Source: Cepaea nemoralis
Taxonomy: Eukaryota > Mollusca > Gastropoda > Stylommatophora > Helicidae
Assembly: GCA_014155875.1 (NCBI GenBank)
Contig: JACEFZ010012596.1
Location: forward strand, 62,001 to 126,000
Reading direction: 5' to 3'
Length of the DNA: 64,000 nucleotides
The notes under the pieces are model-generated. The model saw nothing but the letters and a program-made list of their open reading frames with translations. It was not told where the DNA came from and ran no database searches. A program made the translations under genes and the position numbers. How positions within the stretch are numbered: the first letter of the stretch is position 1; every line of letters starts with the position of its first letter. Below, piece by piece: positions 1 through 33,045 of this stretch.

Positions 1-136
1 TGTTCGACCCTTCTGCTTCATCTTGGAATTTCTTTTCTATGACTTTCGAATCTCTTTTCAACTCTTCTGTCTGTTTCTCATAATCGATTGATTTCTGTGG
101 ATTATTCATCAAATTTCCAGACATTGAATGACTTGA
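1..136 (-). CDS. Exon copy 1 of the repeated coiled-coil exon (cut by the window edge)
   Basis: Minus-strand exon running off the left edge. The splice acceptor AATTCCAG ends at 137 and the frame is open for 45 codons to the edge. It is the most downstream visible member of a family of 171-bp exons. Residues include NNPQKS, DYEKQTEELK and KKFQDEAEGS, a charged helix typical of a coiled coil. It is very close to the copy at 955-1125. The gene itself is not recognised. Confidence 0.6.
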
Positions 137-184
137 CTGGAATTTTAAATCTTAATATTTTTTTTTTAATGATTGTCATAAGTT

Positions 185-880
185 GTTTAACGTAAAGAGA
201 TGTTTCACAAGTATACAGAGATGTCATTTTTTTCATGTATATAGAGATGTCTGTGTTTCACATGAATACAGAGATGTCTATGTTTCACATGTATACAGAC
301 GTGCCTATGTTTCACATGTATACAGAGACATCTATGTTTCACTTGTTATCGGAGATGTCTGTGTTTCACATGTATACAGAGATGTATATGTTTCACATAA
401 AGAGATGTCTGTGTTTCACATGCATATAGAGATGTCCACATTTCCCATGTAAACAGGGATATTATTGTCTCGCATGTATACAGAGAGGTCTATGTTTCAC
501 GTGTATACAGAGATGTCTATGTTTCACGTGTATACAGAGACATCTATGCCTCGCATCTATACATAGATATTAATGTCTAGTATGTATAAAGAGATGTTCA
601 TGGCTCACATGTATGCAGATATATTTACGTTTCACATACGTACATAGATGTCTATGTTTCACATGTATAAAAAGATGTATAATGAAGATGACCGTCTTTC
701 ACATTTATACAAATATATCTATGTTTCACCTGTATACAGAGATGTCCATGTTTCACATGTATACAGAGATGTCCATTTTTCACATGTACACAGATATGTC
801 AATGTTTCACATGTTGACAGAAAAGTATATGTCCGGAGTGTATAAAGAGATGACTACATTTCACATGTATACATATTTGA
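185..880. repeat. 27-bp minisatellite array in an intron
   Basis: Imperfect tandem repeats of a 27-bp unit containing TTTCACATGTATACAGAGA followed by TGTCTATG. The period is a multiple of three, so all three plus frames and at least one minus frame stay open and give 9-residue peptide repeats such as MFHMYTEMS. These are not believed to be genes. Variant units (with CTTGTTATCGG, with CACATAAAGAGATG) occur in the same order as in the array at 1180-1606, so the arrays were duplicated together with the exons. Confidence 0.85.
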
Positions 881-954
881 TCAATGCTTGCAATAGACTG
901 TTTTCTGCGGGATAATATTCATTGTAAACAACTGAATAATTGCTTTATTCTCAC

Positions 955-1125
955 CTCTTCGGAATTTGCCTTCAGTTCCATGATTTTTGTGTTCGACCCT
1001 TCTGCTTCATCTTGGAATTTCTTTTCTATGACTTTCGAATCTTTTTTCAACTCTTCTGTCTGTTTCTCATAATCGGTTGATTTCTGTGGATTATTCATCA
1101 AATTTGTAGACTTTAAATGACTGGA
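955..1125 (-). CDS. Exon copy 2, 171-bp symmetric coiled-coil exon
   Basis: Acceptor TTTAAAATTCCAG at 1126-1138 and donor GAAGAG|GTGAGAAT at 949-954. The exon is exactly 171 bp (57 codons), open throughout, phase 0 at both ends, so it can be included or skipped without a frameshift. The peptide is rich in E, K, Q, D and N (DYEKQTEELK, KKFQDEAEGS, TKIMELKANSEE), consistent with a coiled coil. About 100 bp of intron after the donor is conserved in all copies and in the longer exon at 32628-33045. Confidence 0.7.
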
Positions 1126-1179
1126 CTGGAATTTTAAATCTTAATATTTTGTTAATGATTGTGATAAGTTGTTTAACGT

Positions 1180-1606
1180 AAAGAGATGTTTCACAGGTAT
1201 GCAGAGATGTCAATTTTTCCCATATATATAGAGATGTCTGTGTTTCACATGTATACATACATGCCTATGTTTCACATGTATAGAGAGACATCTATGTTTC
1301 ACTTGTTATCGGAGATGTCTATGTTTCACATGTATACAGAGATGTATGTGTTTCACATAAAGAGATGTCTGTGTTTCACATGCATATAGAGATGTCCACG
1401 TTTCACATGTAAACAGAGATATTATTGTCTCGCATGTATACAGAGATGTCTATGTTTCACGTGTATACAGAGATGTCTATGTTTCACATGCATACAGAGA
1501 CATCTATGCTTCGCATCTATACATAGATATCAATGTCTAGTATGTATAAAGAGATGTTCATGGCTCACCTATATACAGATATGATTAAGTTTCACATATA
1601 TACATA
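1180..1606. repeat. 27-bp minisatellite array, second block
   Basis: Same unit and same order of variant units as 185-480. It is interrupted at about 1606 by a 5'-truncated LINE and resumes at about 3656. Confidence 0.85.
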
Positions 1607-3655
1607 GATATGTATCTAATTCCCCTGCCGAAGCCTGGCAAAGACCACACAAAAATTCAAGGATATCGAGTAATCACCATGCAGAATACATTAGGCAAGC
1701 TGCTGGAGAAGTTAATTGCCAGAATAATATCAAGCCAGCTAGAGAAGCAAGGCGTTTTCCCCACCTACCATAGGAGGGTACCGTCCCAAAAGAGAAACTT
1801 GGACCAATGCAGCAGTTTTTGACCATGAAGTTTATGAAGGTTTTCACTCAGGCATTGAAACCTTTGCTGCACCGATTGATCTTGAGGACGCGTACAACAG
1901 AGTCCCATTGGATTTTCTAATGCTTCAGCTTCTTGAACTCAAGATAAGTCCGTTCCTACTTAGTTGAATCGCTGAAGCCCTCTTCCAACGGAAAGTAGCT
2001 TTTAGGTGTGGCAGTTGGACTTCGGAACCAACAACAATATATCCTGACCTACCACAGCGATCACCATTATCTCCTGTGCTGTTCAACGCCTACACAGTGA
2101 GAATCACCAACGAGCACATCACTGGACCGGGGAGGATATTGTCATATGCCGACGATGTTTTAGTGTATCGCCAGGGTAAGGATAGAGATCAGGTTGCTGT
2201 GGAACTACAAACCGAACTCAATCGCATAAGTACTTGGTGTGCTGAAGCTGGGGCAATGGTCAACCCAACAAAGGCAACAGTGACATGGTTCTCGTTGAAT
2301 AATCATATTGTCAACACTCCAACACCAACTGTAATTCTGTGTTCAGAGACGGTGGAAAGAACGCAGGCAATGAATTACCTGGGGATACGTTTTGATCGAA
2401 GCCTTTCTTATAACGAGCACATAGACCAGGTGGGGTTTGTGCGGATGATGGCGGCAGCAAACTGTGAGCAGCGCCATCTATGCCTCCTATATGAGGGGCT
2501 GGTCATGTCTGTTTTTGAGTATGCGATGGCGATCCTTACTCTCAGCCGTAAGCAGATAGAAAGTATGGAAAGGATATAAAACGAAGCTATACGCATTATC
2601 CTTGGATGTACAAGAGATACAGCATGCAGGGCGATGGGCTACCTTCTTGATTTTCCAACCTTTGAAGGCAGACTACAAATTTGTAGAGCACGTGCCTACC
2701 TCAGAGTTAACGCAAACACACAACATCCACTGCATAGTGAAATTAGGAAGGTGAATGGCAGCAGGTTAAAAAGAGGAAGGTCGTGGATGGTTCAAGCCGA
2801 AGACATTCTTCAACAGGTGTGTTCACTAGAGGACTTAGAACCTTGCGGGGAGTGGGTACAAGTGCCAACCGATTTCTGTACGTCCTTGTCAGTTTGCATC
2901 CAACTGAACAGAAAATGCAGACACGAAAATCCGGCTGCTGTGGAGGCGGAAGTACAAGTGTTGATTTTCGAGAATTCGTTAGACGGTGATGCTGTCATCT
3001 ACACAGATGGGTCGGTGGTCCGACATGTGATAAGCTCATGGGCCTTCAAGGCGCGGGCGGAGGTAGAATTGTGAAGGAGGACTCTTGTGCTTTTGTTGAG
3101 ACCACAAGTAGCCTGACTATGGAAGTCATGGCAGTAAGTAAAGCAATAACATGGATCGAGACACAGACATTCCTTAGCCACTCCATGAGCATGCTCAAGA
3201 GGATAGAGATAGAGTGGATCCGAAGAGAGTTGTTGCTGTCTCTGGAGCGGTCTCGGCTGACAAAGATTAGTTTCATCTTCCTGCCAGGGCATGCTGGAGT
3301 ACAAGGAAATGAGCGGGATGACAAGCTCCCAAGTAAGGCTAAGGTGGAGGGCGGACGCGCCATGGACCAGGCTAACATTCTGAATGCTCTACGAGACGTA
3401 GGACTTGTGCGAGAACCAAGTGATGAATGCGAATCTACAACAATGGTCAGAATGCGAGATCAGCAAATCAAAAGAGGGGTGGCCAAACAAGAACACTACG
3501 CAGGAAGCCAAAGAAAATTAATAAACCAACACAGAACTGGTATCGTTAGCCGCTACATGCTGCGGGATTTGCTGAGGAGGGGATCCGAACACCTTATGGA
3601 CTGAATGGTTCGATGTGCAATGAGAATGATCTGTCGATTAACTAACTAACTAACT
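1606..3655 (+). mobile_element. 5'-truncated I/Jockey-like non-LTR retrotransposon (copy A)
   Basis: This LINE fragment is inserted in the minisatellite. It starts inside the reverse transcriptase domain (IPLPKPGKDHTK) and continues through the YADD box and an RNase H domain to a 3' tail of TAAC repeats (about 3635-3654). Copies B, C and D elsewhere in the window match it closely but sit on the minus strand. It is broken by several stops and frameshifts, so it is dead. An RNase H domain after RT is characteristic of the I group of non-LTR elements; the exact clade is not resolved. Confidence 0.85.
1610..3604 (+). pseudogene. Reverse transcriptase-RNase H of LINE copy A, broken
   Basis: Open pieces are 1610-1822, 2076-2579, 2634-3074 and 3038-3604. 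The first carries RT motifs around LIPLPKPGKD and the LGKLLEKLIAR helix. The second holds the catalytic box in LSYADDVLVYRQGKD and the thumb region MNYLGIRFDRSLSYNEHID. The third ends with the first RNase H motif VIYTDGSVV. The fourth holds the conserved Glu (SLTMEVMAVSKA) and the late motif PGHAGVQGNER. At least three frame breaks separate them. The product would copy the element's RNA into DNA at a nick. No endonuclease is left in this copy. Confidence 0.8.
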
Positions 3656-3727: not shown

Positions 3728-3740
3728 TACAGAGAGCCAA

Positions 3741-3959: not shown

Positions 3960-3972
3960 TACAGAGAGCCAA

Positions 3973-4354: not shown

Positions 4355-4524
4355 CTCTTGGGGATTTGCCTTCATTTCCCTGATTTTTGTGTTCGACCCT
4401 TCTGCCTCATCTTGGTATTTATTTTCTGTGACCTTCGAGTCTCTGTTCAACTCTTCTATCTGTTTTTCATAATCGGTTGATTTCTGTGGACAATTCATAA
4501 AATTTTCAGACTTTGAGTGTCTTA
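4355..4524 (-). pseudogene. Exon copy 3, splice acceptor destroyed
   Basis: Good donor CAAGAG|GTGAGTATA at 4346-4354 and an open frame with MNCPQKSTDYEKQIEEL and KYQDEAEGSNTKIREM. The acceptor reads TTCCAATAAG where the other copies have TTCCAGTCAAG, so the AG is lost and one base is missing. The nearest alternative AG would give a 166-bp exon and a frameshift. This copy is probably skipped or dead. Confidence 0.6.
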
Positions 4525-4579
4525 TTGGAATATTAAATCTTTGTGTCTTCTTTTTGATTATAATAAGTTGTTTAACATA

Positions 4580-4960: not shown

Positions 4961-5302
4961 GTCTGATCTCAGTGGACAAACATTCACTGTAAACATCTGA
5001 ATAATTGCAATATACTCACCCAGTAATATGCTGAAATCCGTATTTATAGCTATACAAAAAAGACTAGGAACAATTTAATGTGACGATTTTCGTACAATTA
5101 ACCTCATAAACCATATCATTAAGCTTCTACTCAAAATCATAATGAAAAGAACCAGAAAGAAAATAAAAATGGAAATTTTTGAAGAACAGTCTGGATTTGT
5201 GGAGGAAAAGGGCACAAACAATGCAATATATACGTTACGGACACTAATAGAAAGGTCAATAGAGAAACAGAAAGACATATTTGTGCTTCATAGATTATAT
5301 TA

Positions 5303-5549
5303 GCCGGCTTCGTGGCTTAGAGGTTATGACCTTTCTCCGTAATCTCGTATACTCTCGTCGATGACGTGATGACGGTGAGAATCAGCAGTGGTTCGAATCG
5401 CATCGGTAACTTACGGGGTATGTGAGCCGGCCGCTCAGAAAGCAATAGCAAACTACTGAGCGTAATCTTGCCAAGAAATCAACATACAACTGAAAGATGC
5501 TGGTGTTGAGAGCGATGTCCTGTAAAGGATATGCAAAAAAAAAAAAAAA
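5303..5549 (+). mobile_element. tRNA-derived SINE with RTE-like tail and poly-A, inside an RTE copy
   Basis: The head has A-box-like CGTGGCTTAGAGGTTATGACC and B-box GGTTCGAATCGC. The 3' body contains AGCAATAGCAAACTACTG, ATCTTGCCAAGAAATC and GTCCTGTAAAGGATATGC, followed by about 16 A. The flanking direct repeat is AGATTATATTA (5292-5302 and 5550-5560). The 3' body is shared with copies at 58995-59230, 37530-37770 and 29165-29600, and resembles the conserved 3' end of RTE/BovB LINEs, which would explain its mobilisation. Confidence 0.85.
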
Positions 5550-5928
5550 AGATTATATTAAGGCATTTGATAAAGTAAAACATGATGAACTGATTAAAAT
5601 GTTGGAAGATGTCAACATTGATGGGAAAGATTTGAGAATAATAAATAATATTTACTGTAACCAAGTAGTCGCAATACTGGGAAATAAAGAGGGTTGTTAC
5701 GAACAGATAAAGTTAGGAGTACGACAGGGGTGTGTCTTGTCACCAGATCTCTTCTCCCCATATAGCGTAGTGATAATGATAGAGATGAAAGAGACGCCAA
5801 GAATACTAGTTGGAGGTTATAATATAAATAATATACGCTATGCAGATAACACAGTATTGGTGGCAGATAATTCAACAGACCTACAACAATTGCTGGACAT
5901 TGTAGTAACAGAGAGTGCAAGAAAATGA
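5497..5928 (+). pseudogene. RTE reverse transcriptase fragment
   Basis: Starting after the SINE tail (about 5551), the frame reads DYIKAFDKVKHDEL, then GVRQGCVLSPDLFSPYSV and NNIRYADNTVLVADNSTD. These are RT motifs of RTE-type LINEs. The first codons of the open frame come from the SINE tail, not from the LINE. The catalytic YADD is YADN here, and downstream sequence is out of frame, so it is inactive. Confidence 0.75.
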
Positions 5929-6205
5929 CTCTCCTTGAATATCAAGAAAACAGTAACAATGGTGATATCAAAGAAAATGGTGACAACAAAATGTGAAATA
6001 GAAGGGGAAATTCTTAACCATGTGGATAATTATATACCTACGGGCATTTATAATATCAGATGGAAGATGTACAACAGAGATTAAGAGCAGAATAGGGCAA
6101 GTAAAAGCCGCATTTCAGAATTCAGAACACCAAACGCTGAGTTCTGTGGAGTGCCATGAACGCCTACACTAGCTGGCAGGGCACTTGATGATGATGATTA
6201 CTCAC

Positions 6206-6376
6206 TTCTTGGGGATTTGCCTTCAGTTCCCTGATTTTTGTGTTCGACCCTTCTGCCTCATCTTGGAATTTCTTTTCTGTGACATTCGAGTCTCTGTTCA
6301 ACTCTTCTATCTGTTTCTCAGAATCTGTTGATTTCTGTTGATTATTCAAGGAATTTGCAGATTTTGAATGTCTTGA
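6206..6376 (-). CDS. Exon copy 4, 171-bp symmetric coiled-coil exon
   Basis: Acceptor AAATTTCCAG at 6377-6386 and donor CAAGAA|GTGAGTA at 6199-6205. Exactly 57 open codons, phase 0-0, with QQKSTDSEKQIEELNRDS and EKKFQDEAEGSNTKIREL. The donor abuts the 3' end of the RTE insertion, and the donor hexamer survives only because it lies in the target-site duplication. The intron now begins with the RTE tail. Confidence 0.65.
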
Positions 6377-6611: not shown

Positions 6612-7870
6612 CTGTCTAAGCTTCACTTGTTATCGGGGATGTCTATGTTTCACGTGTATACAGAGATGTCTATGTTTCACATAAAGAGATGTTTGTGTTT
6701 CACATGTATACAGAGATATTCACGACTCGCATGTAAAATGAGAAGTTAATGTTTAAGGTGTATACAGAGATATTAGTGTCTCGCATGTGTAAATAGATGT
6801 TCATAGTGTTCACATGCATTCAGAGATGCCAATATTTCACATGCATACAGAGATATCTATGATTTACCTGTATACATAGATGTCCATGTTCCAAATGTAT
6901 ACAGATATACATGTTTCTTCTCATGTATAAGTGAATGCCCATATTTCCTATGTTTATAGAGATACCAATGTATTACATGCATACAGAGATGTGAACGCTT
7001 GTAATAAATTTTTTTCCATGTTTCACATAAGATATCCACGCCTAATTCGCATATAGAGATTTACTATGTGTCGAAAGTAAATACAGATGTTGATTTTTGT
7101 CGTGTAGAGAGATATACGCATGTTTTGAGTGTGTAAAGAGGTGTCTATTTTTCATGTGCGTACAGAGATGTCTATGCTTCACGTGCATATAGAGGAGTCT
7201 TTGCTTCACTTGTTATCGGAGGTGTCTATGTTTCACATGTATACAGAGATGTCTGTTTCACATAAAGTGATGTCTATGATTCACATGTATACTGAAATAT
7301 CCATGCTTCACAGGCATTCAGAGATATTCACGACTCTCATGTATACAGATATTAATAGATCACACACATACAGAGATATCAGTGTACTCGCACGTATAGA
7401 GAGATATTCGTGATTCATATACATATATGTCTATGTTTAACATGCATACAGATATATCTATGATTCACATGTATTCAGAGATGTTTATGTTTCAAACGAT
7501 ACAGAGATGGCCATGGTTCACATGTATAAGTAAATGCCCATGTTTCCCATGTTTACAGAGATGCCTATCTTCACATTCGTACAGACATATCCATGCTTTA
7601 CATAAAAATGTTTTACATATAATATCCAAGCCTCATTAGTATAAATAGATTTAAATGTGTCTCAAGTAAATAGAGATGTTGATGTTTGTCACGTAGTCAG
7701 ATATGTCCATGTCTTGAATGGGTAAAGAGATGTTTATTTTTCATGTGCATACACAGATGTCTATGCTTCGCATGTTATCAGAGATGTCCATGTTTCACTT
7801 TTATGCAGAGACATTCATGTCTAGCATGTATAAAGCGATGTTCATGTTTCACATGTACACAAAGATGTCT
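6612..7870. repeat. Long 27-bp minisatellite array
   Basis: Roughly 1.25 kb of degenerate 27-bp units with more divergence than the arrays at 0-1.6 kb. Open frames within it (for example MSMFNMHTDIS) follow the 9-codon period and are not gene evidence. The array is cut at 7873 by the 3' tail of a LINE and seems to resume at about 17706. Confidence 0.75.
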
Positions 7871-8167
7871 ATGTTGAGTTGAGTTGAGTTGAGTTAAGAA
7901 CCGACATCACTGCACTCAGGACATTCCCATACCTGCTCCGTCCCCTCGTTCAACAGCAAGCGAAAAAGTTATGCTACTAATCGTTCCCACCGCTATCTGA
8001 TTAAAAGATCTCCTGATGTTCCCTCTCAGTTTTTGAAATTCTTCCAGAACCCCTGCCGATCCCCCGCAATCTCATTCTTTCCACATATGGGTTCTCAATC
8101 TGTTCCTCCGCCTTCTTCACCTGGTCCCACATGCGCACGACCCCCCCCCCCCCTGTACATAGGCAAT

Positions 8168-17940: not shown

Positions 17941-18111
17941 CTCTTGGAGTTGTTTCTTCAGTTGTCTGATTTTTGTGTTCGACCTTTCTGCCCCATATTG
18001 GGATTTCTTTCCTGTGGCCTTCGGGTCTCTGTTTAACTCTTCTATCTTTTTCTCATAATCGGTTGATTTGTGTAGATTATTCATAGAATTAGCAGACTTC
18101 GAATGTCTTGA
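17941..18111 (-). CDS. Exon copy 5, 171-bp symmetric coiled-coil exon
   Basis: Acceptor CATTCCAG at 18112-18119, donor CAAGAG|GTGATTGT at 17933-17940 (weaker than GTGAGT). 57 open codons, phase 0-0: SANSMNNLHKSTDYEKKIEE and TKIRQLKKQLQE. Compared with copies 1-4 it has the ending KKQLQE, which is closer to LQLQE in the long exon at 32628. The frame is intact, although KKSQYGAERS departs from the conserved KKFQDEAEGS. Confidence 0.65.
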
Positions 18112-18149: not shown

Positions 18150-18930
18150 TAACATAAAGATATATTTTATATGTATACAGAGATGTCTATGTTTCACACA
18201 AGGAGATGTCTTGTTTCGCATATATACAGAGATATCCATGTTTAACATGTATATACACATATTCACGACTCGCATGGATAAAGAGATGTTAATGTTTAAA
18301 ATATATACAGAGATATTAGTGTTTTGCATGTATAAATAGATGTTCATGTTTCACATGCATAAAGAGATGTCGTAGTTTCCCATTCTTACAGAGATATCTA
18401 TGTTTCACCTGTTTACAGAGATGCTCATGTTTCAAATGTATACAGAGATCCCCATGTTTCTCATGTATAAGTAAATGACCCTCTTTGCCATGTTTACAGA
18501 GATACCCTTGTTTCATATTGCATACAGAGATGTCCATAGTTTTTAAAAAATGTCCATGTTTCATATAAAATATTCATGCCTCATTCGCAAGTAAATAGAG
18601 ATGTTGATGTGTGTCATATAGACAGATATGCCCATGTCTTGAGTGTTTAAAGAGATGTCTATTTGTCATGTGCATACAAAGATGTCAATGCTTCACATGT
18701 TATCAGAGATGTCCATGTTTCACATTTATGCAGAGATATTCATGTCTCGCATGTATAAAGCGATGTTTTGCATTTATATAATAATGTCAATGTTTCACGG
18801 ATACAAAGATATCAATGTTTCACATGTGTGCAGAAATATCAATGTTTGACATGTGGATAGACATATCTATGTCCAGTGTGAATAAAGAGATGTCTACGTT
18901 TCACATGTATGCGTATATGAACATTGTTTG
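18150..18930. repeat. 27-bp minisatellite array
   Basis: Intron between exon copies 5 and 6; same unit, moderately divergent, ending in the conserved donor-side flank at about 18930-18994. Confidence 0.8.
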
Positions 18931-18994: not shown

Positions 18995-19165
18995 TTCTTG
19001 TAGTTGTTTCTTCAGTTGCCTGACTTTTGTGTTCGACAGTTCTGCCCTATGTTGGAATTTCTTTTCTGTGGCTTTCGAGTCTCTATTCGACTCTTCTATT
19101 TGTTTCTCATAATCGGTTGATTTATGTAGATTATTCATAGAATTAGCAGACTTCGAATGTCTTGA
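18995..19165 (-). CDS. Exon copy 6, 171-bp symmetric coiled-coil exon
   Basis: Acceptor AAATTCCAG from 19166, donor CAAGAA|GTGATTAT at 18987-18994. 57 open codons with NNLHKSTDYEKQIEESNRDS and TKVRQLKKQLQE. It is the nearest relative of copy 5; the two acceptors are about 1054 bp apart, the size of one exon-intron block. Confidence 0.65.
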
Positions 19166-19199: not shown

Positions 19200-19640
19200 T
19201 ATATTAAATTGTTTCACATAAAGAAATGTTTCATATGTATACAGAGATGTCTATATTTCACATGTATATAGAGATGTCTATGTTTCATATGTATACAGAG
19301 ATATCTATATTTCACATGTATATAGAGATGTCTATGTTTCATATGCATACAGAGATGTCTATGTTTCACATGTTTAAAGGGATATCACGTGTAAACAGAG
19401 ATATTAATATCTCTCTTGTATAAAGAGGTGTCCATATTTCACATGCATACATATATGCCCATGCTTCAAATAAAAAGATGTCCATGTTTCACATAATATG
19501 TCCATGCGTCGCTCGCATATAGTGATGTAAATATTTCGCAAGTAAATAGAGATCTTGATGTTTTTTTCATGTAGACACATATACCCATGTATTGAGTGTA
19601 TACAGAGATGTCTATGCTTCACATGTATACATGTATACAC
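19200..19640. repeat. 27-bp minisatellite array
   Basis: Same unit; a well-preserved stretch at 19226-19375 alternates two versions (…TATACAGAGATGTC… / …TATATAGAGATGTC…), a young local 54-bp duplication. Confidence 0.8.
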
Positions 19641-19651
19641 ATGTATATGTT

Positions 19652-19729
19652 CAACCCTTGTATCTGTTTCTCATAATCGGTTGATTGATTTTGTTTATTC
19701 ATAGAATTAGCAGCATTCGAATGTCTTGA
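19652..19729 (-). pseudogene. Exon copy 7, truncated
   Basis: The acceptor side (CAAATTCCAG, from 19730) and the first ~26 codons are present (SANSMNKQNQSTDYEKQIQG), but the second half and the donor are missing, replaced by minisatellite at 19651. It cannot be spliced as an internal exon. Confidence 0.6.
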
Positions 19730-19789
19730 CTGGAATTTGAAATGTTTATTTCTTTTCTCTGATTGTATTAAATTGTTTCACACAAACAG

Positions 19790-19971
19790 GTGTTTCACAT
19801 GCATACAGAGATGTCAATGTTTCACATGAAGAGATGTCTGTAATTAACATGTATACAGTGATGTCCATGTTTCACATGTATACATATATGTTTACATTTC
19901 ACATGCAAACAGAGATGTCTATGTTTCACATGTATACGGACATGAATAATTTTCACATATATAAAGAGATG
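19790..19971. repeat. 27-bp minisatellite, target of the LTR element
   Basis: The same array ends at 19971 with GATG, the 4-bp target duplication of the LTR retrotransposon, and continues for about 40 bp after 26660. Confidence 0.75.
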
Positions 19972-20577
19972 TGTCAGCAACTTGCTTGCGACAGGTCTTT
20001 CAGGACTCCCCTACTTTTGCACCGCACGAAATAACAACTCGTGTCATTTGCAAAAGGAATGCAATTTATTTAGAGCTGGCAATTTATAAGCTCTGCGAGC
20101 GGCATGCTTCATTGACATTAAACAACATGGATGTAATGAAGCTGTGAGAATGATACTAGTAATCACAATCTGAATCTAAAGCCTAATATTAACTATTGTC
20201 TAGAAACTTATAGCATTTGTCAAGAACACGTCTACTCTCTAATCGTCTCCAGTCTGGTCTGTCCTCACGCTACACATTGCGTGGTCAAGCACGGACGCTG
20301 TATCCTCCGTGCATTAGCGAGTCTTGCGTGCATAGCATCCCAGCACGCTGGCTCGTGAACTTGAGTAACCGGGTACTCCACGGTTACTCGTAAGGCCAAG
20401 CTTCCCAATGGCTTGGGGAAGCCCTCGCTCAACTGTCCTTATTGCTCCCTTGGTTGACACACATGTGTCCCCTGGTGAAGCTATTTATAGCGCTGGTGTC
20501 TCTCTTGTCTGGTGTCTCCCTACTAGACTTGTCTTAACTCTTATTAACTCTCTACACCCTTATTGGAGATCTTGACA
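19972..20577 (-). repeat. 3' LTR (606 bp)
   Basis: Begins TGTCAGCAACTTGC and ends GATCTTGACA on the plus strand. Matches 26054-26659 at the same length. As the element is on the minus strand, this is its 3' LTR. Confidence 0.9.
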
Positions 20578-23274: not shown

Positions 23275-23938
23275 CTTCTACTTTAGTAGGCTTGACTGTA
23301 AGCCCAAATACTCGCAACCTGTCGAAGACTTGTCGTAGTTTCTGTAGATGTGATGTCCAGTCGTCCGTATGAATACATATGTCATCTATATATGTAGAAA
23401 TATTGGTCATCCCATGGAGAAGATCCCTAGTTAGACGGACGAAAGTTGCTGGAGCGTTACGAAGGCCAAAAGGAAGAAAGCGCCACTCATACAGACCTAA
23501 ATGAGTGGAGAAAGCTGTTAAAGGAATATAATTTAATTGCATTGGGACTTGCCAATAACCTTTCGTGAGGTCAAGCTTGCTAAATATGCGAGATGTAGAC
23601 ATATCCAAGATCAAATCCTCGCATGCTGGGATTGGTTCAGCATCAATTTTGGTTATTTTGTTTAAACGGCGATAATCGACGCAGAGTCGAATAGTGGAGT
23701 CTTTTTTGGCAACAAGGACGATAGGGAAAGAATACTCTGACTGAGATTTCTGAATAATTCCGCTCGACTCAAGAGATAGTAGTTCTTTGTCGAGATTAGA
23801 CCTATAGTTTAGAGGGATTGAAATCGGTCGACACTTGATTGGGATGTTGTCAGTCAGAATAATAGAATGTTCTATTCTGTCTGTCTTTCCTGGGATGTCG
23901 GAGAAAATGTCTCTGTATTCCGTCACTAACTCTATCAT
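23255..23938 (-). CDS. Reverse transcriptase of Gypsy-type element
   Basis: 227 codons with all RT blocks: RLCVDYRRLNKIT (about 84-96), FSKLDLTKGYWQ (first Asp, about 119-130), FLPFGLRNAPATF (about 154-166) and the catalytic YIDD (183-186) in STYIDDICIHT. It is separated from the upstream integrase frame by one frameshift near 23990 and from RNase H by one base near 23270. Whether these are decay or programmed shifts cannot be told from one copy. Confidence 0.85.
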   Translation of the reverse strand: MIELVTEYRDIFSDIPGKTDRIEHSIILTDNIPIKCRPISIPLNYRSNLDKELLSLESSGIIQKSQSEYSFPIVLVAKKDSTIRLCVDYRRLNKITKIDAEPIPACEDLILDMSTSRIFSKLDLTKGYWQVPMQLNYIPLTAFSTHLGLYEWRFLPFGLRNAPATFVRLTRDLLHGMTNISTYIDDICIHTDDWTSHLQKLRQVFDRLRVFGLTVKPTKVEVGHGTD

Positions 23939-24128
23939 CTGTCGTCGTTGGTCGTCTGTAAGTTTGGTTTCTATCTTATGCTGTCAATGGTCCCAGTCGT
24001 GTTTACAGTAGGGACTGGTAATTCCATTTCGTCGTCATCTGTCTCGTTCAGTACTGTTGTGGTACGAGCTGCGTGTGCTGTTACCTGGCTAAGTGTGTTT
24101 GCGATGTCGCTGTCGTGTGTCGCCCTAC

Positions 24129-25709
24129 CTAGTGTAGTTGTGTGTGTACGTCTGTCGTCCGATTACTTGGTGTTGGTGCATCTTGTTCGTCTGTCTGTGG
24201 TTCTTGTCGTGAGAAGTATGGTTTCAGCATGTTGATATGAAATATCTTTAATTTTCCTTTTATCGATATTTCATAATCGACATCTGATATTTTACTTTCA
24301 ACGTTGAATGGCCCTTGCCAAGATGTTAGTAACAAATTACGTTTATCAGGTAGTAGGAGCAAAATCTTCTGATTTGGTTCAAGGTGTATAGTTTTAGCCC
24401 CCTTATTTGCATAGTCGTGGTTTCCTTTGCTCGACACCTGATTTAGTGGTCCAGCAATATCGACCGCTACACTCTCATATGGTCTAGATGTTAATAAAAA
24501 CCGTTGACCTTCGGCCGTCACATGCTTTCCCTTTCGTACAAGATGTTGACAAATAGTACATGAACGACAGAAATTTTTTATATCAGTACATAATTTAGGC
24601 CAGTAGAAGTGTGACAAAACTCTGGCTCTCGTTTTATCATAGGCCAAATGTCCAGAAAACGGTGACTCATGTGCGATCTTTAGCACATTTTGTCGGTATG
24701 TTACAGGTAACACCGTCTCCTGAATTGCATGGTTATTATTTGTGTAATAACGCATGAGAATTCCGTTATGTTTTATAAAATACCAAGATGCATTTTTAGT
24801 CACTTTCGCTCGCTCACCTAACAATTTAAAATAAGGTGCGATAGTTTGGTCTGTGCTTTGTGCCTCGATAAATTTCTGTCGAGTAGTGTTGGTATCGGCA
24901 CCGCTGGGTGTTAATAGCTGTAGCATTTCATTTTGTAAGTCAGTATAGTGTGTTTGTGTATCTGACCTTGTTACAGCATTAGCCATGTTTGTATGTTTCC
25001 AGGCTCTTATGTGGTCGTCTGTACATTGTTTCAATGAATCTAGGCCTAAAATGAGATCCGTGCATGGATCTTGCAGGATTGCGCAAGTAAATGTGCCGGT
25101 AAGGAACGGGGTATTGATATGCGCCTTTGCCAGTGGGTATTTCTCAATGGTTCCAGAGAAAGTACGGCATTTGACAAATTCACCCGTGTAATCTTCTGGT
25201 CTATTGATTTCTTTCCTTAAACCAAGTAGAGTGCTCCCGCTATCAATTAAACATTGGCATGGTTGATCATTGACCAGTGCATCGTAGAACTTAAGTTTAC
25301 CTCTGGAGGCACTAGCTGCTTTAGCATCTTCATTTGAACATGGTATTACGTGCCCACATTTCAATTTACCATCCGCATGAAATTGGTGACATATGTCACA
25401 TTTCTTAAAGTCTAATATGTCTGTTACCACTGCCACACTCTCACATTCACTCGCTGGTAACACATTTACAAGTTCCGAATCAATGTCACTCTCATCGTCT
25501 GATGACATATCGATGAGTGCAGCATTATTTGCCTTCATTCGTTGCCTACCAAGACATTTATTACTATAATGGCCATAGCTGGAACAAAAGTAACATTTAA
25601 CAGCACGTTTAAATGATGTTCTTCTGCTTTCTTGCTTCTTTAATACTGCTTCTAAGTGTGAGGGATATGCTGGACTTTTATCACACATAGTGTAGCTAGG
25701 ATGAAACAA
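24129..25709 (-). CDS. Zinc knuckle-protease-integrase (core deleted) polyprotein
   Basis: 526 codons. A CX2CX4HX4C zinc knuckle (C39, C42, H47, C52), an aspartic protease motif LIDSGST (D156), a protease flap/ILGLDSL region (about 218-226), an H2C2 integrase finger (H347, H354, C381/C384/C387) and the start of the integrase core with VAVDIAG (D417). After residue ~433 the frame jumps to the integrase C-terminal module (LTSWQGPFNVESK, IFHINMLKPYFS), so the second Asp and the Glu of the DDE triad are missing although the frame stays open. The capsid that should precede the zinc knuckle is also missing. It cannot encode an active integrase. Confidence 0.8.
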   Translation of the reverse strand: MFHPSYTMCDKSPAYPSHLEAVLKKQESRRTSFKRAVKCYFCSSYGHYSNKCLGRQRMKANNAALIDMSSDDESDIDSELVNVLPASECESVAVVTDILDFKKCDICHQFHADGKLKCGHVIPCSNEDAKAASASRGKLKFYDALVNDQPCQCLIDSGSTLLGLRKEINRPEDYTGEFVKCRTFSGTIEKYPLAKAHINTPFLTGTFTCAILQDPCTDLILGLDSLKQCTDDHIRAWKHTNMANAVTRSDTQTHYTDLQNEMLQLLTPSGADTNTTRQKFIEAQSTDQTIAPYFKLLGERAKVTKNASWYFIKHNGILMRYYTNNNHAIQETVLPVTYRQNVLKIAHESPFSGHLAYDKTRARVLSHFYWPKLCTDIKNFCRSCTICQHLVRKGKHVTAEGQRFLLTSRPYESVAVDIAGPLNQVSSKGNHDYANKGAKTIHLEPNQKILLLLPDKRNLLLTSWQGPFNVESKISDVDYEISIKGKLKIFHINMLKPYFSRQEPQTDEQDAPTPSNRTTDVHTQLH

Positions 25710-26053
25710 ACTACAAAAGCCACATCAAGGTGGCTTGACAATATAAACTGATGATTGTATACATTTTCATTACTTTCCGTAGAATAACACACTTCTTCAA
25801 TTTTCGTAGAATCTCACAATTTGTAACTTACTTCCTTCCATTGTGGTTCAAGCTCCACAAATTGTATGATCGTAATAATTCACAAAAGGATATTATCTCT
25901 GCCATTGTATGCAAAAAAATTTACATTACTTTCAAATATTTTAACACAGAAATGATGTCGAATGGTGCTTGTCGAAGATGCTTCAGAACTTTCTGATACC
26001 AATAGCCTGTTGACGTTGGTTCAGGGACTTCTGACACCAATTGGGGCCCTGCC
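25710..26053 (-). other. Leader between 5' LTR and first ORF
   Basis: About 340 bp. On the minus strand, just inside the 5' LTR, sequence reads CCAATTGGTGTCAGAAGTCC at 26046-26027. A TGGTGTCAGAAG element is the likely primer-binding area, but I do not assign the tRNA. No capsid-like peptide is found, so gag is truncated here. Confidence 0.5.
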
Positions 26054-26659
26054 TGTCAGCAACTTGCTTGCGACAGGTCTTTCAGGACTCCCCTACTTTT
26101 GCACCGCACGAAATAACAACTCGTGTCATTTGCAAAAGGAATGCAATTTATTTAGAGCTGGCAATTTATAAGCTCTGCGAGCGGCATGCTTCATTGACAT
26201 TAAACAACATGGATGTAATGAAGCGGTGAGAATGATACTAGTAATCACAATCTGAATCTAAAGCCTAATATTAACTATTGTCTAGAAACTTATAGCATTT
26301 GTCAAGAACACGTCTACTCTCTAATCGTCTCCAGTCTGGTCTGTCCTCACGCTACACATTGCGTGGTCAAGCACGGACGCTGTATCCTCTGTGCATTAGC
26401 GAGTCTTGCGTGCATAGCATCCCAACACGCTGGCTCGTGAACTTGAGTAACCGGGTACTCCATGGTTACTCGTAAGGCCAAGCTTCCCAATGGCTTGGGG
26501 AAGCCCTCACTCAACTGTCCTTAGTGCTCCCTTGGTTGACACAAATGTGTCCCCTGGTGAAGCTATTTATAGCGCTGGTGTCTCTCCTGTCTGGTGTCTC
26601 CCTACTAGACTTGTCTTAACTCTTATTAACTCTCTACACACTTATTGGAGATTCTGACA
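26054..26659 (-). repeat. 5' LTR (606 bp)
   Basis: TGTCAGCAACTT...GATTCTGACA; same length as the 3' LTR with about 11 substitutions and no length change seen by eye. Contains TATTTATAGCG in plus-strand reading; the promoter position was not determined. Confidence 0.9.
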
Positions 26660-26692
26660 GATGCCTATGTTTCAGATTTATAAAGAAATGTC

Positions 26693-27630
26693 TATAGCTT
26701 GTTAGTTATGTAGTTAGTCGACAGATTATCCTGAATGCACATCGAACCATTCAGTTCATAAGTGCTCGGATCTTCTCCTAAGTAAATCCCGCAGCGTGTA
26801 GCGGCTAACAAAACCAGTTCAGTGTAGGTTTATTAATCATCTTTGGCTTCCTGTATAGTGTTCTTGTGTGGCAACCCTTCTTTTAATTTGCTGTTCTCAC
26901 AGTCTGACCATGGTTGTAGATTCACAATAGTCGAGTCGCTTGGTTCTCGCAAACGACTTACTTCTCTTTGAGCATTCAGTATATCAGCCTGGTCCATGGT
27001 TCACTCGTCCACCCTCCACAGTAACCTTACCTACAAGTCTGTCAACCTGCTCATGTCCTTGTACACCCGCATGCCCTGTAACAAATATGAAACTAATTTT
27101 TGCCAGCCGTGACCGCTTCAGAGATAAAACCAATGTCTTCAGACTCACTCCATCTCTATCTTCTTGAACATACTCATTGAGTATCTACAGAAACATGCCC
27201 GAGTGAAGGTCTGTGTTTCTAGCCATGTTATTGCATTACTTACTACTATGACGTCCACAGTCAGACTACTTGTGTTCAATTCAAAAGCACCAGACTCTTC
27301 CTTTACAATTCTTCCCCCAGCCTGAGCCATAAAGGCACAAGAACTTCTCACGCGTCGAACGACAGACTCATCTGTGTAAATGACAGCATCACCTTCTAAA
27401 GAATTCTGGAAGCTAAAAGCATGTACTTCCGCCTCCACAGCAGCCGGAATTTCTTGTGTACATTTTCTGTCTAGTTGGATGCAAACTGAAAAGGACGTAC
27501 AAAACTCTGTTGGCACTTGAACCCACTCTTCGACAGGTTCTAAGACATCAAGTGACCACACCCGTTGAAGAATGTCTTCGGCTTGACCCATCCACGACTT
27601 TCCTCTTTTTAACCTTGCTGCCCTTTCCTC
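26693..27630 (-). mobile_element. I-like LINE copy B, 5'-truncated
   Basis: Same family as copy A, opposite strand. The 3' tail TTAGTTATGTAGTTAG lies at 26702-26717. The best open frame (27145-27591) carries the start of RNase H with VIYTDESVVRRVRSS (Gly of TDGS replaced by Glu) and SSLTVDVIVVSNAITW, where the conserved Glu is Asp. RNase H is therefore damaged. It is truncated within the RT-RNase H linker at about 27630. Confidence 0.8.
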
Positions 27631-27635
27631 CAGTG

Positions 27636-27912
27636 CCTTGCCGGCTGGCGTGGGCGATCATGCCTCTCCACAAATTACGATCTCCGACGTCATGGATCAA
27701 TTCATGTGTTCACTTCCTCCCGTGTCATAACACAAGACTGTCAAGAATCTCACGCTGTCTTCCTTTCTCTCTTTCCACAAATCTTTCCTGTTGTCACAAC
27801 ATGTTCCAGTTTTGTATTCTCATAACGTGGCCAAAAAACGATGACTGCCTCTACCTGATGTTTGTGATAAGTAGTCTTTACGACTCAGCTTCCCTTGAAA
27901 CGTCTTGATTGC
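27636..27912 (-). mobile_element. RTE-type LINE 3' fragment
   Basis: Begins GCCGGCTGGCGTGGGCGATC on the plus strand, the 3' end signature of a LINE also found at 58893-59340 (GCCGACTGGCGTGGGCGATC), and shares CACAAGACTGTCAA and TTTCCACAAATCT with it. No long frame. Confidence 0.6.
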
Positions 27913-27937
27913 TCAATTTTGCTGTCAATTAATTTTC

Positions 27938-29140
27938 AACCATCCATCCATCATGTACCACGCCGATAAGTGTTGGCAGTTACGTTTAGCCATCTCACTA
28001 GATCAGCAAAGTCGTGGATCAGCTCCGTGTTTCTTTCTTGATCATGACATATGGCCAAGCCATCCAGGTATTTACTTCTCGGTCTTCCCTTGGTCTCTTC
28101 CCTTGGATCTTGCCAGTTGTCACCAAGTTCTCCAATTCATTTCTTCTCATAACATACCCACAAAATTATGACTGTCTGCGTCTGTCTCTAATCAGTTTAC
28201 GATCTTCATTTGTTCTTTGAAGGACTTGTTCATTTGTTTTTCTGTCTGTCCGTGGTACTCTTTACATTTTCCTCAGAAACCACATTTCCGCAGCATCAGA
28301 ATTTTTTTCAGCTTGTCTGCTCATTATTCACCCTTCATATCCATACAAAAGTGCATGTTCTATGTACTTCTTCAACACTCTTTTTCTCGTTTCAATTGAT
28401 ATCCTTTTATTGGTCAGTATGTTTTTCATCTTGCAACAGGCTACCTTCGCAATGGCAATTCTTGTTTTAATCTCTTAAATGTTATGACTGTTCAGAGATA
28501 ACTGTACCGATTCACTTGTTTAAGATTATGCCCATATTACTTGAATATTACATGTGGTATTTCCTTCCTCCCAGTGAGGACCATAATCTAGTGTCTTCTT
28601 ACAATTCAATTATAACCCTAGTTTTTCACTGTATGCAACAATCGCATCTACTAAATGTTGCAGGTCCTGTTCATTGTCTGCAATCAAGACCCTATCATCT
28701 GCATATCTAACGTTATTAATGTATCGTCACCCAATGATGATTTCTTCCATACCTTCTATATTTCTGAAAATACTTTCACTGTACAGGGCAAAAAGATCTG
28801 GAGACATTACACATCCCTGCCCCACACCTCTTTTAATAGGCTGATATTGACCTACTTCGTTATCAATTATTATGGTAATTTGTTGTTTCCAATATATGTT
28901 TTTATTTTAGACGTCTAAGGTCTTTTCCATCAATTTGTAGATCTTCAAGCACCCTTATCATGTCCACATGTCTCACTTTACCGAAAGCCTCTGTGTAGTC
29001 AATAAAGCAAAGGTGTAGATCATTGTTTATGTCTATAGAACGTTCAATTATTGTACTCAGTATATGCACAGCTTTTGCTGTACCCTTGCCTTCTACAAAC
29101 CCACATTGTTATTTTCTATTTCAGGTTGTATTCTAACATT
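27938..29140 (-). mobile_element. RTE-type LINE fragment, RT to 3' end
   Basis: Minus-strand copy of the family best preserved at 52030-53690. The tail is CCATCCATCCATC on the plus strand. Matching segments include the 3' ORF end (28010-28090), the VLIADN-type block around 28670-28700 and the LHLCFIDYTEAF-type block near 28990-29020. Multiple frame breaks; truncated at about 29140 in KIQPEIE. Confidence 0.75.
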
Positions 29141-29164
29141 CCAAGTTCTTACTTTCAATGATAG

Positions 29165-29600
29165 TAATCGTTTGCACTCAGTAGCCTGCTGACGGTCTGG
29201 AGTCACCAGGTACACATGACTATCCCTTCGGGGCGAGGCTGCTCCTATGGAGCACCCATTTACGCCGTTAAGCTGATTTTCGATGAGACCGTGAAACATA
29301 ATTTTCTGGGCATCTGTAAAGAAGGTAGTTTGCCATTGATTTCCTTTTTACCAGTGACTATTGTGGCCAATGATCGTAGTCATTGCCGCCACAAAAAAGA
29401 GATCCACTGCCTACCGTCGTGAAGCTGGAGACAACTTACAAGTGTCTGTCGGCTGCTCTTCAACTTCATCCACCACCTACACCCATGGCTTCACGTAAAC
29501 CTGATCGGAAGGCTAAACGGGTACTCCGCCTTGCCCAAGGGTGTCCCGTAGGCTAGCGGAGGGAAGGAGGCACCTTACTTCTCCATTGATATAGGATACC
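29165..29600 (-). mobile_element. SINE with RTE-like tail (degraded)
   Basis: The minus strand contains AAATCAATGGCAAACTACC and CAGATGCCCAGAAAATTATG, the same 3' body as the SINEs at 5303-5549 and 58995-59230. It lies between two RTE fragments of different families. The head is not clear; limits are approximate. Confidence 0.5.
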
Positions 29601-29624
29601 CCTACCCCGCCACCCAGTTTCAAC

Positions 29625-30110
29625 ATTCTTCTATAAAACCACATCTCCAAGGCTTCTATGGAATTTCTCGCCTGTTTATTAATTGTCCAGGATTCGAAGC
29701 CGTATGTTAAAACTGGTTCTATGTAACATGCAACAACTCTTTTCTAACTTTTAATGACGGTGACTTATTAGACAAAACGTTCTTCATTTGATAGAATGCA
29801 GTTTTTGCTTGTCCTATTCGGTTCTTTATCTCAGTGATGCATCTTCCATCTGATGTTATCCACAGATATCTGAATTTCTGCACTTGACCCAAAATAACAT
29901 CCCGTACTTTAATTGCACATTTAGGCACAATATGGTTTTTATTTTTAAATATATCACCATAACTTCTGTCTTTCTATTATTCAAACTAAGGCCCATTTTT
30001 TCACTTCCCACAACCACTGTATCTATCATTTCCTGTAGATCCTTCTGACTTGTTGCTATCAAGACGATCTAATCAGCATAACTAAGTTATTTATATTATA
30101 TCCACCAACC
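29625..30110 (-). mobile_element. RTE-type LINE fragment, second subfamily
   Basis: The frames 29719-29928 (VQKFRYLWITSDGRCITEIKNR) and 29856-30062 (DLQEMIDTVVVGSEKMGLSLNN) match the thumb region of RTE reverse transcriptase. The same peptide (LQEMMDTVVVESEIMGLNLNN) is at the right edge of the window, so both belong to one subfamily. Confidence 0.7.
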
Positions 30111-30112
30111 AG

Positions 30113-32293
30113 ACTCCATGCCCTTTACCTTCTTAATTTCACTATGCAGTAGACGTTGTGTGTTTGCGTTGACTTAGAGGTAGGCACGTGCTCGGAAAAT
30201 GCGTATTCTGTCCCCCATATATGGAAAATCAATAAGATAGCGCATCGCTCTGCATGCTGTATCTTTGGTACATCCAAGATAATACGCATGGCTTCGTTCT
30301 GTATTCATTAAATCCTTTCCATCTGCTTATGGCTGAGGGTTAGGATAGCCATCGCATGCTTAAAAACAGAAAGGACCAGACCCTCGTATAGAAAGCATAG
30401 ATGACACTGCTCATAGTTTGTCGCCGCCATCAACACCCCCCCCCCCCCTCCCACTGTAGCCAAACCTCTCTTGGCCTTTATTATCTCCTGGTCTACGTGC
30501 TCAGTATAAGCAAGACTTCGATCAGATCGTATCCCCATGTATTTCCTTGCTTGAATTATTTTCACAGTCTCTGAGCACAGATTTACAGTTGGTGTTTAAG
30601 TGTTGACAATATGGTTATTCAAAGAGAACCATGTCACTGCTGCCTTCGTTAAGCTGACCATTGCACCAGCTTCAACATACCGCATGCTTATGCGATTTAG
30701 TTACGTTTATTGTTTCACAGCAACCAAATCTCTATCCTTACCCTGACGATACACTAACACATACAACAATGTCCTCCCCGGTCCTGTGATCTGCTCACCG
30801 GTGATTCTCACAGTGTAGGCATTGAACAGCACCGGAGATAATGATGATCCCTATGGCAGGCAAAGATATATTGTTGTTGGTTGAGAAGTCCAACTGCCAC
30901 ATCAATAATCTACTTTCCGTTGGAAGAGGGCTGCAGCGATCCAATTAATGAGGAATGGGCTTATCTTGAGTTCAATAAGCTATGTTGTACGCATCCCCAA
31001 GATCAATTGCAGCAGTACATGTTTCAATGCCTGAGTGGAAACCTCCATACACATCATGGGCAAAAACTTCTGCGTTGATCCAGGTTGCACGGTACCCTCC
31101 AAGGGTAGGTGAAAAAGCATTGCCTCTCTATCTGGCTTGATATTTTTCTGGAAATTAACTTCTCCAGCAGCTTGCTTATTGTATTCTGCATGGTGATTAC
31201 CCAATATCCCTAACATTTTGTGCGGTCTTTACCAGGCTTCGGCAATGGAATCAGATAGCTGTGTAACCACACCTCCTTGATGCTAGCACTCCCACTGTTG
31301 TTGTACACATCTGCTAGTTCCTCTAACGCGTTGTCGGTTCACATACTAATGTTATTTGTTTGTCGTAGCACAGACTTGATCTATTTCACTGTCACTATGT
31401 CCTCTTATGAAATGTTCTGGGACTTACACCTATCTGAGGTAACCGTAGTGGCACAATTTTGTCCTCTCGTGTCTGCCTGGTTGCTCTGCTCTAGATAGTG
31501 TTCTAAAAGGGCTTTTCTCTTATTCTCGTCAGTTCTTTATCAAATGAGACCAGCACCCTGGAAGTCAGGAATACTCTTATTCTTGACTACACCGTCACCA
31601 GAACAATTTCAGTGACTTGTCCTTGCTTATTCTTTGACACAACTCTGTCTATTTTTAACTTTTTAACACTCTAACCAGTTTGTTAAAACAGCTACATTTT
31701 GTTTCCATGTCTCTTTCCAAGTGCGAGATATGACTAGGATGGGTAACTCTGCTCGTTTTGCCATTTCCTTAGAGCACCACGCTTATCCACAGAGGCCTTT
31801 TCCACCTCGCAATTCCACTAAGGGGGTAGCTCCCAGCTTGTTTTTTTTTTTTTTGCAATGGTGATTTATGTGCTTGTTGCACCTTATTTCACCCACCACA
31901 TCTTTCCCTTTACTGTCATTCTTGAATGTCTTGACCTTTGACTTGTGTTGTCTGGTTCTGCCTTTCTCCGCCAATATGCTGCAAGGGTGGTGGTCGCTGC
32001 CATGGTACCCTAGGACACCATATCTACATACTATATTGAGTAAAGGAGAAACCAGCACCATGTCAATAACACTGCCCTCATCACCTTTTGGCTTGCTGTC
32101 CTGGTGATATAGCCACTGTTGTTATAAACAAGGTCGATGGTTTCAAGTGCGGCCTCGAGCACCGCTCCTGTGTGTTGAAAGAAAAGTTTCCCTATGACCT
32201 GCCTTTAGCGTTGAAATCGCCACAGAAAATGACATTCCTCTAGTGACATAATATGTCGCTCAAGCACTGCCACCTCTGAAAATCCACACTCGC
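30113..32293 (-). mobile_element. I-like LINE copy C, both ends missing
   Basis: Same family as A, B and D on the minus strand. It runs from endonuclease (about 32290-31780, with GVLGYHGSDHHPCSI) through the RT linker to RT (30308-30565, with YMGIRSDRSLAYTEHVDQ). It stops before RNase H at 30113 and is cut in the endonuclease at 32293, where minisatellite resumes. The plus strand at 30437-30448 has a C run. Numerous stops. Confidence 0.8.
31783..32061 (-). pseudogene. Endonuclease end region of LINE copy C
   Basis: Frame with YGVLGYHGSDHHPCSILAEKG, the terminal conserved block of the endonuclease (matching GVLGHHSRDHHSCSI in copy D). Upstream and downstream continue in other frames. Confidence 0.65.
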
Positions 32294-32560
32294 GTCTATG
32301 TTTCACATAAATAGGTGTCTTTATTTCACATCTATACAGAGATGTCCATGTTTCACATGCATACAGAGATGACCATGTTTCATTTCTATACAATGTTTCA
32401 CGTGTATACTGAGATGTCTAAGATGTATGTGTATACAGAGAGTTCATGATTCAAATGTTTACGGAAATGTCCATGTTTTACATGTGAACAGAAATGTCTA
32501 TGTCCAGCGTGTATAAAGAGATGTCTGTGTTTCATGTGTGTATATATACGTGACCAATGC
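32294..32560. repeat. 27-bp minisatellite beside the long exon
   Basis: Same unit as at 0-20 kb, followed by the conserved donor-side intron flank (about 32545-32627). This ties the long exon to the repeated exon blocks. Confidence 0.75.
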
Positions 32561-32627
32561 TTGCAATGGTCTGTTCTCTGTGGATTAATATTCGCTTTAA
32601 ACAACTGTAAAGTTGTCCTATACTCAC

Positions 32628-33045
32628 CTCTTGGAGTTGTAAATCCTTTCCCCTGATTATTGTGTTCAGCCGTTTGACCACATCTTCTAGCATTTTCTTT
32701 TCTTTAGCCTTCAATTCTTTTATTTGATTGTGACGGTTATCGCTGACTTGCTTTTGATGATTACTAGCAATTAACTGGGATTTTAAATCCTCATAATTGT
32801 CTTCGTTTTGTCTTAAATCGTCTCTGAGAGAGTTAATTGCCTGTGTTAAGTTACAATTTTCCTGCAGCAGGAGTAACATTTCTGCATACCTGATCCTTAG
32901 TAGGTCCTGTAATCGATGTAATTGTTGTGCGAGCATTTTGTAGTTAATGATATGTAAAATTTCATCAAATGTCCGTGTCTGGCTGGGATCTTTCTCAAAA
33001 TCTTCAGATACATCTGGAGGCAACGGGACCACTGTTATGTGGAAC
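32628..33045 (-). CDS. Long coiled-coil exon (418 bp), parent of the repeated exon
   Basis: Acceptor TTTATCCCCACAG ends at 33046; donor CAAGAG|GTGAGTATAG at 32618-32627. The frame is open for 139 codons: an opening VPLPPDVSEDFEKDPSQTR, then helical RTFDEILHIINYKM, LHRLQDLLRIRYAEMLLLLQ, TQAINSLRDDLRQNEDNY and KELKAKEKKMLEDVVKR, with heptad-like leucines throughout. Its last 57 codons align by position with the 171-bp exons (…NQIKELK…NTIIRGK…LQE against …KQIEELN…NTKIREL…PQE), and the ~100 bp of intron after the donor is homologous too. It enters with 1 base completing a codon and leaves in phase 0. I do not recognise the protein. Confidence 0.75.

Follow-up and report, generated by a model that had tools for sequence, protein, structure and literature searches.

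Tandem duplication of exons, with cumulative or alternative inclusion of the copies, is an already known kind of mechanism, described for OBSCN, NEB, NBPF20 and the Drosophila gene hydra, and in hydra the initial exon was duplicated recurrently, seven of nine copies being flanked by the transposon DINE-1 (PMC9013439). This study concerns an exon array in the snail Cepaea nemoralis, located in a stretch of 64,000 bp (the window) that corresponds to positions 62001-126000 of contig C11659 (JACEFZ010012596.1), in an assembly of 3.47 Gb and 26,579 contigs; the window is eukaryotic, with 40% G+C. A 418-bp putative coding exon, H, is followed on the minus strand by seven copies (e7 to e1) of a unit made up of the 3' part of H and the start of the H intron. 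The best explanation as a whole, with about an even chance of being right, is that H is coding, that part of it was duplicated, and that those copies with both an acceptor AG and a donor GT are weak cassette exons. As in the four genes named above, homologous exons of one gene stand in tandem, but, as far as that source describes those genes, the Cepaea array is unlike them in having partial copies of the parent exon, a new 3' splice site from coding sequence, minisatellite introns, and whole arrays copied to several loci, and in being known from sequence alone.

A further parallel is the classic AGGT-duplication model (Rogers 1989 and Hellsten 2011, as cited), in which the splice signal of a new intron likewise comes from duplicated coding sequence. 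In the cited outline of that model an exonic AGGT is duplicated and the peptide is unchanged, whereas here the donor is that of H itself, the acceptor is CAG|TT, and each unit is predicted to add 57 codons. An in-frame coding CAG serving as the acceptor of a repeated minisatellite-intron unit was not encountered in the literature searched, which consisted mostly of titles and abstract openings; an initial annotation of this DNA had stated that no gene of such form was known, and within that search this holds for the combination of features but not for tandem exon duplication itself.

The flagelliform silk genes of spiders, with iterated exons and homogenised introns, also have a repeat unit of exon plus intron. 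Their exons code for structural repeats and the copies are homogenised, whereas the complete exon copies of the window differ by 10-21% (5% for e1/e2) and some are dead. The micro-exon genes of schistosomes resemble the array in having many symmetric exons in one gene, but micro-exons are far shorter and do not look like tandem duplicates of a single exon. The Cepaea locus would provide a traceable case of a partial exon duplication that, in a single step, can turn coding DNA into a new acceptor and a symmetric exon, and the dozens of copies in this genome, which differ in age, offer material on the fate of weak acceptors.

Descent of the repeated unit from exon H

The seven minus-strand copies that had been reported downstream of the 418-bp exon were recovered by BLAST and by profile search, with profile E-values for the copies and H of 9e-100 to 1e-29, far beyond chance in the window. 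A profile of the unit matched the copies, H, and a detached donor flank of e4 at E < 1e-18, while the remaining four window matches had E > 0.4. The array consists of homologous exons arranged head-to-tail on one strand at one locus, and phase 0-0 with a length of 171 bp was found in e1 (in the contig), e2, e4, e5 and e6, but not in e3. The four complete open copies are exactly 171 bp, as first described, and the edge-cut e1 has the same length and is open in the contig. The acceptor spacings of 989 and 1054 bp were also right by coordinates, as were the 27-bp minisatellite introns according to Tandem Repeats Finder (TRF).

The exon part of the copies and their donor-side intron align to the end of H and to the H intron in the same reading frame, the best such alignment being that of e3 with H (74% identity over 221 columns, E 2e-35), and the original proposal that the array grew out of the 3' portion of this exon is right, the intron of H having contributed as well. 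The acceptor-side flank of the copies derives from H coding sequence: it aligns to a stretch of H ending at an in-frame CAG at H position 271, and what had been taken for a separate acceptor-side intron flank of about 70 bp is former H coding sequence. When anchored at this CAG, with the CAG itself excluded, six of the seven copies (e1, e2, e4-e7) share 22-30 of 47 bases with H. Among 1183 other minus-strand CAG sites (1190 minus that of H and the six copy sites), none reached the values of e1, e2, e4, e6 and e7, and five reached that of e5. The ungapped comparison fails for e3 (17/47, reached by 164 control sites) because of a 1-bp deletion. A 27-base version gave no control sites for e1, e2, e4, e5 and e6, two for e7 and 230 for e3, these CAG-anchored tests being on related copies and hence not independent. 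A local gapped score over 30 bases, compared with shuffles, was not significant for e5 and e7; a consensus of six copies has the same acceptor-flank homology to H coding sequence.

After the CAG, H has 147 nucleotides (49 codons) and the copies have 171, with eight extra codons. H does have a homologous segment at its end, followed by the donor-side intron of the copies, as claimed, except that this segment has 49 codons rather than 57. In H the junction reads CAG|TT, and the donor of the copies is the native donor of H. The in-frame position of the CAG gives the copies 57 codons and phase 0-0; their length and phase are therefore inherited, and the symmetry, which is real, is no separate evidence of selection. 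Stops occur in at least one window copy at 3/16 codon positions upstream of the CAG and at 0/57 downstream (seven copies), for which the p value of 0.009 is indicative, the copies being related and the downstream parts of e1, e3 and e7 being incomplete in the window or at the junction.

The following origin is proposed. H would be coding and belong to a helical protein that evolves fast, and a tandem duplication with breakpoints inside H and in the minisatellite of the next intron would have carried along the 3' portion of H together with its donor and the beginning of that intron. Some 50 bp that had been coding in H would then have formed the 3' end of an intron in the copy, with the in-frame CAG codon as a weak 3' splice site. 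Unequal exchange within the minisatellite introns may then have multiplied the unit, and whole arrays may have been duplicated to several loci. Copies with both AG and GT would be included, probably weakly or alternatively, lengthening the helical segment; such inclusion would select against stops but hardly on amino acids, and copies losing a splice letter would decay.

The unit is not confined to the window. A genome search, in which 40 of 195 candidates were scored, gave at least 41 matches, spread over nine contigs. Loci closely similar to that of the window lie on C14612 (168-218 kb) and C19312, with megablast mean identities to the window of 95.2 and 94.8% (two C14612 stretches) and 91.7% (C19312), and up to 98.7% in long pieces; they may be either alleles or recent duplicates. 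A second pair of this kind is made up of C2325 and C6868 (95.6%), and C485 and C22365 also have local copy groups. Several copy types (e3-like, e4-like) cluster by type and not by contig, and therefore arrays were probably duplicated as wholes. At the place of e1, C19312 has another copy type. In C14612, the copy of e5 (188667 onward) has five inserted bases at four places and otherwise one mismatch in 171 (99% identical); the inserted bases are likely assembly errors, and therefore other frameshifts call for caution.

Reading frames and splice signals of the copies

The copies read number 51, comprising those matches to the family, within the retrieved stretches, that lay above a cut on coverage and score, with one H-type row removed; 42 of these are unique. 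Frame integrity tracks splice-letter integrity across this set: a stop or frameshift is present in 4/26 copies with both AG and GT and in 12/16 copies without (p 2e-4), or p 0.003 when five copies that share the e3 deletion count once. Set against a neutral simulation along terminal branches, stops were observed in two copies with AG and GT where 5.9 were expected (P 0.034), and in five copies without them against 4.7 expected (P 0.67). Over the whole tree, seven copies had stops against 25.5 expected (P 0.0005), a depletion that would also arise if only open copies amplified. Gap openings per 100 bp numbered 0.47 in the exon and 1.39 and 0.92 in the flanks (28 nearest pairs of a 39-copy set); this smaller set, used for gaps and column changes, leaves out three indel-rich copies, all with stops, which the stop test of 42 copies includes. 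Each column of the donor GT has one change against a background of 2.8 (39-copy tree). The donors are mostly good, so that their description as consensus stands apart from two that read GTGATT and not GTRAGT; the acceptors are weak and unconserved. In e2, e3, e4 and e6, 28.5% of exon columns (47/165) and 37.4% of flank columns (58/155) are variable (p 0.096). Simulation of the six window copies alone gave P 0.017-0.029, which is post hoc, the array having been picked for being open.

A number of results weigh against inclusion of the copies in transcripts, and most of them suit the principal rival, a tentative but serious one, in which the copies are exon relics, never or no longer spliced, that travel with a minisatellite intron as it amplifies (in effect satellite DNA containing a fossil exon) and owe their open frame to H and to copies amplified while still young. 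The acceptors had been called consensus, but they have 7-8 pyrimidines in 16 positions, without a pyrimidine tract, and among the minus-strand AGs in the window 28-41% do as well or better, compared with 12/16 for the acceptor of H, which is matched or beaten by 1.8% of minus-strand AGs (the splice scoring tables were crude). The two AG columns show 1 and 5 changes against a flank mean of 3.1 per column (39-copy tree) and therefore no extra conservation. When junction indels are ignored, 27/34 copies with AG and 11/17 without are open (p 0.31), and with all terminal branches pooled seven copies have stops against 10.7 expected (P 0.11). Relative rates over the 42 copies were 0.67, 0.94 and 0.95 for codon positions 1 to 3, 1.39 for the acceptor flank and 1.07 for the donor flank, positions 2 and 3 being alike and near the donor flank. 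The comparison of dN/dS (omega) between copies that the initial annotation had suggested gave near-neutral values genome-wide, 0.91 where AG and GT are both present and 1.03 in the remaining copies, and it is the link between frame and splice letters that speaks on the other side. For the six window copies omega was 0.75 (p 0.36 against 1). Nei-Gojobori (NG86) estimates for single window pairs are noisy, with 14/15 intervals including 1 and only that of e5/e6 below, and for e5/e6 the maximum likelihood (ML) omega was not different from 1 (p 0.21). The youngest pair, e1/e2, differs by 5.1% in the exon and 6.1% in the minisatellite intron. The counterparts of e2 in C14612 and C19312, two near-identical locus copies, have an in-frame stop at codon 14, a sign that had been named in advance as pointing to decay, and 0/6 full copies on C22713 are intact. 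Copy age could by itself link the loss of splice letters with the loss of frame.

Relics would be expected to evolve like the rest of the unit, and this is true for e1/e2 and nearly so for codon positions, but not for the stops of copies with AG and GT. The depletion of stops in those copies only and over the whole tree, the linkage of splice letters with frame, and the lower indel frequency of the exon relative to its flank all argue against the relic explanation. At some loci the copies are probably weak cassette exons, and at others probably relics. An unlikely reading takes the array as a cluster of cassette exons used alternatively or in mutual exclusion, with a single one per transcript, giving a protein that varies in sequence and not in length, for which weak acceptors would suit a regulated choice, while the symmetric phase allows a single choice without requiring it.

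Divergence of exon H and the predicted protein

H has good splice sites at both ends (acceptor TTTATCCCCACAG, donor GAG|GTGAGT). Compared with its counterpart on C14612 (173785-174202), 58/418 sites differ (13.9%), both versions being open over 139 codons, against a background of 893/39,700 (2.2%) in a 40-kb stretch of the window aligned to C14612; of 396 intervals of 418 bp, one tops H, and it overlaps H. The differences comprise 52 nonsynonymous and 6 synonymous changes (dN 0.176, dS 0.073, omega 2.41, bootstrap 1.16-7.95). Divergence in the block that surrounds H also exceeds that of the rest of the locus, its introns (29201-32627, minus the nearly identical 30601-31400) differing at 171/2550 sites (6.7%), like dS, or at 177/3350 (5.3%) when 30601-31400 is included. 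The nonsynonymous sites of H (52/331, 15.7%) exceed these introns (p 1.6e-7 against 171/2550, p 7e-11 against 177/3350) and the nearest 150+150 bp (23/299, p 0.002). When polarised by two paralogs, 25 nonsynonymous and 4 synonymous changes fall on the C14612 branch and 19 and 2 on the window branch, with 8 nonsynonymous changes assigned to neither.

The excess of nonsynonymous divergence, with both versions of H open, appears as a sign of diversifying selection, and H is probably a living, diversifying exon. Points on the other side are that the ratio of nonsynonymous to synonymous changes is weak when taken by itself (p 0.052 two-sided, 0.031 one-sided), that the 5' side of H (33046-33400, mostly a 46-bp minisatellite) differs at 33/271 sites (12.2%, p 0.24 against the nonsynonymous sites), and that the H paralogs C22365 and C14612:24050 each have a stop, one also a frameshift. 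In pairs with these paralogs omega lay at 0.64-1.3, and no pair differed from 1. The divergence of H might come from gene conversion with an unseen paralog as donor, but dS should then be raised too. The 46-bp minisatellite (33098-33556) lies directly upstream of the H acceptor and is more divergent between locus copies than its surroundings. A second divergence peak against the C14612 copy (11-12.5%) lies at 27600-28300, in a stretch with an open reading frame (ORF) resembling that of a long interspersed nuclear element (LINE).

An AlphaFold2 (AF2) model of H, made with no alignment, is one long helix (residues 26-138) with a mean predicted local distance difference test (pLDDT) score of 87, 98/139 residues having pLDDT of at least 90, and the model of one copy is a single helix (5-56, mean pLDDT 81). 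A periodicity of 3.5 residues was seen in single exons at p 0.002-0.16, while four joined exons were at chance (p 0.87). As 57 equals 8x7+1, the heptad register slips one residue per copy, 5-7 of 16 a/d positions are hydrophobic, and heptads do not continue across exon junctions as in a parallel coiled-coil rod. The slip and the lack of periodicity in joined exons therefore make a continuous coiled coil unlikely; of the product first envisaged, what stands is that the copies are open, symmetric and predicted to be helical. On these models a helical spacer would fit the array product better.

No Pfam family reached its curated threshold with H, the best match being Retrotrans_gag with 18.4 bits of the 24.1 required (E 0.0026), and among PDB sequences none was better than E 0.23. 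A predicted-protein database, queried in three length ranges, yielded no relative of H, a search that needs shared 5-residue words and can therefore miss remote ones. The third query included a LINE piece as a control, and its named matches were mollusc, shrimp, sea-spider and moth proteins; animals are therefore present in that database. Longer alignments that reached into the H part were rejected as chance, H alone giving a best BLASTP E of 2.8 on those proteins. If the divergence of H is due to diversifying selection, the locus would mark an arms-race protein without a relative in the databases searched. A further reading, and an unlikely one, is a multi-locus hypervariable helical family whose H exon diversifies in a recognition or reproductive role and persists as divergent haplotypes, with an expandable array of cassettes, their 3' splice sites drawn from coding sequence, giving length variants.

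Layout of the locus and neighbouring elements

The coordinates of the array are given in Table 1. It extends past the window edge, where the complete open e1 is followed by a further open copy of 174 bp. An element further downstream (C11659:59534-59674) partially matches the end of H and the donor flank; it was rejected as another copy, its upstream part being unrelated by eye and the matching frame being stopped in two other locus copies. The exon upstream of H and the exon past the array were not found, and Rfam gave nothing in the window at gathering cut-offs.

Table 1. Exon H, its copies and the 27-bp minisatellites in the window.
Feature	Position	Strand	Remarks
Parent exon H, 418 bp	32628..33045	-	codons from second base, end phase 0; open 139 codons; predicted helical
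H coding stretch, about 50 bp, incl. in-frame Gln codon CAG	32775..32824	-	became acceptor-side intron flank of copies
Copy e7, truncated	about 19650..19729	-	first ~80 bp only; BLAST; profile match 19646-19782, E 3.8e-30
Copy e6, 171 bp	18995..19165	-	open; AG; donor GTGATT; BLAST and profile
Copy e5, 171 bp	17941..18111	-	open; AG; donor GTGATT; BLAST and profile
Copy e4, 171 bp	6206..6376	-	open; donor GTGAGT kept; profile pieces 6431-6199 and 5020-4921
Copy e3	4355..4525	-	AA in place of acceptor AG, 1 bp deleted; no longer usable as symmetric exon, apart from this open in old frame
Copy e2, 171 bp	955..1125	-	open in window; stopped in two other locus copies
Copy e1, cut by window edge	1..136	-	whole in contig (C11659:61966-62136), 171 bp, open
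Minisatellite intron, e2 to e1	200..886		TRF
Minisatellite intron upstream of e2	1186..1609		TRF; then LINE-like insert, about 1613-3640
Minisatellite intron upstream of e4	6638..7875		several TRF rows inside span
Minisatellite intron, e6 to e5	18171..18910		TRF
Minisatellite stretches around e7	19229..19972		TRF rows 19229-19451 and 19791-19972
Minisatellite in intron directly downstream of H	32324..32502		TRF rows 32324-32392 and 32445-32502

Several mobile elements lie within the array. The donor flank of e4 is interrupted by a LINE-like insert that adjoins the donor, and continues at 5020; a short target duplication of this insert (5025-6200) leaves one GTGAGT at the e4 exon and a second at the far side. 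In the insert upstream of e2, ORFs resemble a LINE reverse transcriptase, as judged by eye. The intron between e5 and e4 holds a broken, apparently intronless gene copy on the minus strand (15996-17224, perhaps to 17904) with YccV-like and Transglut_core2 domains, which we take to be FBXO21-like and which is probably a processed retrocopy. Beside e7 lies a long terminal repeat (LTR) retrotransposon (19972-26660) with direct repeats at 19972-20578 and 26054-26660 that are 98% identical and with a reverse-transcriptase ORF, and the C14612 locus copy is colinear across it.

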